Source of the DNA: Anaerolineae bacterium
GTDB taxonomy: Bacteria > Chloroflexota > Anaerolineae > Aggregatilineales > Phototrophicaceae
Assembly: GCA_019912965.1 (NCBI GenBank)
Contig: JAIOHM010000236.1
Span: forward strand, 1-64,000
Direction of reading: 5' to 3'
DNA length: 64,000 nucleotides
This document shows positions 54,747 through 55,774 of this stretch, piece after piece (position 1 is the stretch's first letter; every line of letters starts with the position of its first letter). The notes under the pieces are model-generated. The model was not told the DNA's origin and did no database searches. It saw nothing but the letters and a program-made list of their open reading frames with translations. The position numbers and the translations under genes are program-made.

Positions 54747-54889
54747 GATTATCCCTACGATTCTGTGTATACAGACCTCATAAGTTCATTTTAGCACAAA
54801 TGATCTATACAAGTCAACAACCACGCGAAACAAACCACACCAATCTGGCAGTTGGCAGCATCACAAAAGCAGGCCATAATTCCCGCACT

Positions 54890-55774
54890 ATGAGCAAACC
54901 AAAAGTCACAATTTATACCGATGGTGGGGCACGTCCAAATCCCGGAACAGGTGGATGGGGTGCTGTCCTGATTTACCCTGACCGGGAAAGCGAACTCAGC
55001 GGTGGTGAAAAGGATTCCACCAACAACCGCATGGAACTGACGGCGGTCATCACGGCGCTGGATTCACTGGATCAGTCATATGCGGTTGATCTATACACTG
55101 ACAGCGAATATGTCAAAAACGGCATTACCCAGTGGATCAAAAACTGGATTAAAAAAGATTGGCGCGATGTCAAAAACCCGGATTTGTGGCAGCGTTTGCA
55201 CACCGCCACGCAGCGCCACGAGATCAAATGGCATTGGGTGAAAGGCCACGCGGGACACGCTTACAACGAACGGGTAGACGAACTGGCGACCCGCGAAATT
55301 GAACGGCTGACAGGCAAGTCTATCGTCCGTAAAGTTGAGGTGACACCAACGGTCAGCGCCGATATTCGCATTTACATCAACGCGGCATATTCATTTGAGG
55401 ATAAACGTGGTGGTTGGGGCGCAGTTATCGTCAATACCAGTGAGCAGGAATTCAGCGGGGCGGAACAGAACAGCAGCGAAAATCAATTGGTTTTGATCGC
55501 CAGCAGCACAGCGTTGGAATCGCTCAAATCGCCTGCCGATATTGTGGTTTACACCAACAGTGAATATCTGCAAAAGGGGATGAGCCAGTGGGTGAAAAGC
55601 TGGATTAAAAAGGGCTGGCGCACGGCAGCGGGCGAACCCGTCAAAAATCGTGAGCTATGGGAACGGCTGGTGAAAGCGGCTGAACCCCATCAAATTCAGT
55701 GGGTTTATCAGAAGAAATACGATACGCCGCAAGCCCAACGCGCTTATGAACTCGCCAATAAACCTTTGCGTTAG
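54890..55774 (+). CDS. RNase HI with a second, degenerate C-terminal RNase H-like domain
   Basis: N-domain '[22 protein letters not shown]', 'NRMELTAV', 'LYTDSEY', 'NERVDELA'; C-domain 'IRIYINAAY...GGWGAVIV', 'NQLVLIAS', 'VYTNSEY', 'QRAYELA'. Confidence 0.92.

Follow-up and report, generated by a model that had tools for sequence, protein, structure and literature searches.

Why should a chromosomal RNase HI carry, at its C-terminus, a second copy of its own domain from which the catalytic residues have gone? The question is raised by an open reading frame of 294 codons at positions 54890..55774 (+ strand) of the window, by which we mean the whole stretch of 64,000 nucleotides of Anaerolineae DNA that was analyzed. 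A preliminary description of the locus had proposed an internal duplication, followed by conversion of the second copy to a non-catalytic, possibly substrate-binding, domain. Its sequence features were confirmed in every particular that was checked. As described below, the duplication and the conversion are both borne out, and substrate binding is the best-supported function, since the conserved positions lie mainly on the substrate face. Judged from the sequences, the C-terminal domain is probably a clamp for RNA/DNA hybrids, made from a duplicate of the chromosomal RNase HI.

The two domains of the protein

The ATG at 54890 lines up with the starts of the homologues, which support it as the start codon; an in-frame ATG farther upstream, at 54800, was considered and is unsupported by them. 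The whole protein scored 317.9 bits against the NCBIfam model PRK00203 (cut-off 160), and the Pfam RNase_H model (PF00075) matched each half separately, with E values of 3.9e-45 for the N-terminal half and 1.4e-23 for the C-terminal half. All of the features given below lie on the same + strand.

The N-terminal RNase HI domain (54902..55306; PF00075 at residues 5-137, PRK00203) retains D11, E49, D71 and D130 together with H120, the counterpart of E. coli H124, and all four acids were likewise kept in 59 of the 62 N-domains of the two-domain homologues. By every applicable sequence test it is an ordinary RNase HI, for which cleavage of hybrids is predicted. It is followed by a linker of about residues 141-158 (55310..55363), with pLDDT below 50 at residues 148-155. 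Among the homologues the spacing from D134 (E. coli numbering) to the equivalent of D10 in the second domain ranges from 23 to 49 residues, and the linker is predicted to be disordered.

The C-terminal pseudo-RNase H domain occupies residues 159-294 (55364..55771), as delimited by PF00075 and the structure model. The two halves align over their full length, as originally noted, with 39% identity over 137 columns (E 1e-31), such that their likeness is not due to chance. In this alignment each of the four acids is replaced, again as described: D11 by N164 (55379..55381; D10 in E. coli numbering), E49 by V201 (55490..55492; E48), D71 by N223 (55556..55558; D70) and D130 by Y286 (55745..55747; D134). 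The region of the catalytic His has also been exchanged, His120 and the GHAGHAYNE loop of the N-terminal half giving way to KYDTPQ, and the fold landmarks quoted in the preliminary description were found again in the C-terminal half. The predicted handle and DNA-binding channel of the pseudo-domain (55571..55660) contain W234, W238, W243 and W257, which are the counterparts of E. coli W81, W85, W90 and W104.

Loss of catalytic residues and purifying selection

The extent of catalytic loss was analyzed in 62 C-domains, using E. coli numbering. The first Asp, D10, was absent from all of them; the position was usually taken by Arg, Lys, Ala, Gly or Tyr, with Arg or Lys in more than half. E48 was retained in 42% and D70 in 14%. 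Counted by protein, none of the DEDD residues remained in 24 C-domains (the window protein and 23 others), one remained in 35 and two in 3. E48 occurred in families f8 and f42 and nearly all of f43; D70 occurred in same-genus relatives of the window protein (where the third Asp is still present, in the motif YSDSEYL) and in families f59 and f60. Arg, and sometimes Lys, in place of the first Asp was observed in the C-domains of families f3, f4, f6, f8, f42 and f43. Such a basic residue could convert the former metal site into a phosphate-binding site.

Among close relatives for which dS could be estimated, pairwise dN/dS was 0.04-0.29 for the C-domains versus 0.01-0.23 for the N-domains; the C-domain is thus maintained under purifying selection. 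With no D10 in any member and at most two of the four acids in each, its conversion to a non-catalytic domain is supported, and the name of RNase H enzyme is inappropriate for it despite its membership in the fold family.

Origin and distribution of the two-domain architecture

A tree was built from 180 domains. The 63 C-domains all fell on one side of a single branch (SH-aLRT 97) and the N-domains were intermixed with single-domain enzymes, although the tree came from a quick search of 118 columns with long C-domain branches, so that long-branch grouping is possible. Within the C-domain group, however, the sequences clustered by taxonomic family, which argues for inheritance rather than such an artifact. 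The separate phylogeny of the two domains that had been suggested thus supports internal duplication. The pattern is compatible with a single old duplication, after which the second copy lost catalysis and was itself lost several times. The rate of evolution of the C-domain is approximately 1.5-2 times that of the N-domain, and several lineages no longer have it.

Two-domain homologues were detected in the genus of the window, in several other genera of its family and in six other families of its order. In total, the architecture was present in at least 16 families and at least 44 of the 249 genomes sampled from the class, and in the sample of the phylum no match outside the class spanned the second domain. 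Single-domain RNase HI occurred in many of the same families, including about half of the genomes sampled from the genus of the window. The coexistence of both forms in the same families indicates either repeated loss of the C-domain or its acquisition from a patchy ancestor, and the several genera that have only the single-domain form imply that the putative clamp is dispensable. When remnants of a C-domain were sought by tblastn downstream of single-domain genes, the significant matches fell in the RNase H gene itself.

Two unusual loci were encountered among the homologues. In genome G002, which belongs to the genus of the window, a second two-domain copy (locus L007, 575-1453, - strand) lies directly downstream of a two-domain RNase HI gene, with a gap of 24 bp. 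The N-terminal half of this copy is damaged as well (E48 to K, D134 to V, His loop gone), thus giving a wholly dead paralogue adjoining an active gene. In locus L107 (G047:C22:120400-122900) two reading frames are needed to follow the N-domain through the region of the handle, as though paired frameshifts or sequencing errors had occurred there.

Conservation of the substrate face and the handle

In sharp distinction from the catalytic columns of the C-domain, which ranked between 71st and 133rd of 136 in conservation, T43 (always Thr or Ser), N45, Y73, W81, W85, W90 and W104 (E. coli numbering) were conserved in 95-100% of the C-domains. The top-ranking columns were Y73, W85, W90, W104, W118, N45 and W81; W85, W90 and W104 were each present in 62 of 62 sequences and W81 in 59. 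N100, which adjoins the DNA phosphate pocket, was Asn in just 39 of 62. In human RNase H1, W221 of the basic protrusion makes a stacking contact with a deoxyribose in the hybrid's DNA strand (PMC8960830; PMC4132731). Judging by how far it lies from the catalytic Asp in the sequence, W81 of E. coli would occupy the position of human W221. The conservation of the Trp residues may be partly structural, as the same residues pack the handle helices. Nevertheless, the handle is absent from some RNases HI (PMC1950709; PMC9719913), and its retention in the C-domain is therefore informative.

The distribution of the handle between the two domains was examined further. W81 was kept in 52 of 53 single-domain enzymes and in 59 of 62 dead C-domains, versus 47 of 62 (76%) of the active N-domains. 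The excess of loss in N-domains gave a Fisher P of 7e-4, yet it corresponds to 8 changes on the tree versus 1, and in phylogenetically paired tests, which had few informative pairs and low power, it was not significant. In two proteins (L028 and L106) the N-domain lacks the whole handle and the C-domain has it, while in three others (L087, L089 and L091) W81 is missing from the C-domain and present in the N-domain. Family f28 is a further lineage with an eroded handle in the N-domain. Replacement of the N-domain of L028 and L106 by a foreign RNase H was also considered; a tree that keeps family f1 together was not rejected (AU p 0.70), which makes plain loss of the handle an equally likely explanation. 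The median pI was 8.85 for single-domain enzymes, 7.18 for N-domains and 8.83 for C-domains; in the window protein the values were 6.5 for the N-domain and 9.07 for the C-domain. The erosion of the handle in N-domains and the shift of basic charge agree with a division of labor, as far as sequences can indicate one.

Structure models

The preliminary description had called for structure prediction of the two halves. The AlphaFold model of the C-terminal half adopts the RNase H fold (pLDDT 94.5), and its best match among solved structures was E. coli RNase HI (1f21; TM 0.87, 1.7 A); since the input alignment consisted of RNases HI, this result is a consistency check on the fold and not independent proof. 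The full-length model has a pTM of 0.58, with an uncertain arrangement of the domains, and its alignment contained no two-domain homologues, so that the interdomain geometry is not usable.

In a Foldseek search, the full-length model aligned over the connection and RNase H domains of foamy virus and gammaretroviral Pol proteins, with a poor rigid-body fit. A ribonuclease H of 306 residues from Pithovirus LCPAC404 (BFVD A0A481ZDV3) aligned with most of the two-domain model and is another potential tandem RNase H. A search for viral relatives returned many RNase HI loci.

Proposed function and alternative explanations

The following mechanism is proposed. The N-domain of the cell's chromosomal RNase HI would cut the RNA strand of RNA/DNA hybrids, as expected of the enzyme. 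In the ancestor of the class, its RNase H domain would have been duplicated in tandem, giving rise to the C-domain, from which metal binding and catalysis presumably disappeared very early, the first Asp being lost in all members. The C-domain would have kept the substrate face, i.e., the contacts to 2'-OH groups and phosphates and the Trp-lined handle for the DNA strand. Tethered by its flexible linker, it would bind the RNA/DNA duplex beside the active domain, thereby raising affinity or processivity and sparing the active domain some of the gripping of the DNA strand. Both the binding of hybrids by the C-domain and the gain in affinity or processivity are inferred here from conservation patterns.

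Other roles for the C-domain were weighed against hybrid binding. It could be a structural module, serving dimerization or stability, whose core and handle are kept because they fold and make contact with the N-domain or with a second protomer. W90, W104 and W118 do sit in a buried aromatic cluster, and the uncertain interdomain arrangement leaves room for an interface. This explanation appears unlikely, however, as T43/S, N45, Y73 and W81 stand at 95-100% conservation against a mean identity of 39% elsewhere in the domain, other RNases H fold without a handle, and the linker is variable in length and predicted to be disordered. Less likely still, the C-domain might direct the enzyme to a partner or to another substrate, such as dsRNA, a protein bound to R-loops, the replisome or SSB. 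The frequent Arg or Lys at the position of D10 would suit binding to the phosphates of another duplex, and a family-specific surface would be permitted by the free rebuilding of the C-terminal helix and of the loop that follows strand 5; yet no C-terminal tail or surface is conserved across the families, and the face that is conserved is the canonical one for hybrids.

Two further explanations are very improbable. Were the C-domain a decaying remnant without function, its faster evolution and its disappearance from several lineages would be accounted for, but the reading is contradicted by purifying selection at the dN/dS values given above, by intact frames in at least 16 families and by the invariant W85, W90 and W104. 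The idea that the domain has remained a nuclease by arranging its catalytic residues differently could draw on the E48 and D70 residues that persist in the lineages named above. Against it, D10 is lost in all members, at most two of the DEDD residues are left in any of them, and none is left in the copy in the window.

Comparison with known RNases H

The catalytic residues of E. coli RnhA (PF00075, PRK00203) are shared with the N-domain, and its fold and basic-protrusion handle with both domains, but the known RnhA is a single domain, to which a dead second copy is fused C-terminally here. Searches of the open-access literature for bacterial RNases H in tandem, double or pseudo form found no such description. 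An accessory module that is believed to hold the hybrid, and that can substitute for a lacking handle, is also known from the RNases HI/H1 that carry a hybrid-binding domain (dsRHbd/HBD, PF01693), including those of B. halodurans, Shewanella SIB1 and eukaryotes (PMC1950709). The HBD, however, is N-terminal and has a small, unrelated fold, in contrast to the degenerate C-terminal RNase H described here. Similarly, the TBP-like N-domain of RNase H3 recognizes RNA/DNA like an HBD (PMC4132731), but both its fold and its catalytic domain, which is type 2-like, differ from those of the present protein.

No match to PF01693 was detected in the 294-residue protein or in its genome. In the class, HBD-bearing RNase HI was found in 18 of 150 genomes sampled, in several cases on RNases H that lack the handle. 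The HBD genomes include none of the two-domain genomes (hypergeometric P 0.026, a value that ignores phylogeny), which suggests that an HBD and a dead RNase H are alternative grips. In B. halodurans, the HBD was proposed to make up for the missing handle (PMC1950709), and in the light of that proposal L028 and L106 look like an analogous case.

The connection or tether domain of retroviral reverse transcriptases and the dual RNase H of Ty3/Gypsy elements also combine a degenerate, non-catalytic RNase H with an active one (PMC9040795). In these elements, the dead domain is the older, stands N-terminal to the newer active domain and is tied to a polymerase. In the present protein, by contrast, the active domain comes first, there is no reverse transcriptase and both copies derive from one RNase HI. 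Whether the duplicate has been made a permanent clamp, with catalysis in the N-domain and the grip on the DNA strand in the C-domain, as a polymerase-free and reversed-order counterpart of the retroviral tether, we regard as an evenly balanced proposition. The human RNase H1 mutant D210N, used as a probe for R-loops, lacks a catalytic Asp and binds hybrids uncut; it is engineered and separate, while the dead domain described here is natural and fused.

RNases H have gained additional grip on hybrids several times, either by recruiting foreign modules (the HBD and, in RNase H3, the TBP-like domain) or, as in retroviruses, through degradation of an old RNase H. If the proposed function is true, the present protein would be a free-standing cellular RNase H that gained its grip through its own copy. 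Many natural intermediates are available, in which Glu or Asp is partly kept, the handle is shifted between domains or a neighboring gene is dead in both halves, and natural sequences would allow catalysis and substrate grip to be separated and tested. The natural dead-RNase H domains might also become probes for hybrids or R-loops.

Genomic surroundings and other RNase H genes

The two-domain gene stands alone. Its neighbors, a DinB-like gene on one side and on the other a small gene that matches no Pfam family, are encoded on the opposite strand, and genes for an aconitase and an aminotransferase lie farther away. RNase HII is also encoded in the same genome.

Three additional RNase H-containing genes were observed in this genome, apparently within a repeated cassette that occurs on contigs C76, C30 and C234 (L002, L003 and L004). 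The cassette encodes a DUF488-like protein, an RNase HI with a C-terminal domain that is weakly DprA/SLOG-like and a protein of 320 residues without a Pfam match, and it looks like a mobile or defense-type unit. Several relatives (G002, G007, G008, G013, G015 and G024) have RNase H genes that belong to this length class. Another unusual fusion was observed in Halanaerobium saccharolyticum (L053-L055), in which RNase HI is followed by a C-terminal domain that resembles carboxymuconolactone decarboxylase/AhpD-type proteins (DDCITYH...).
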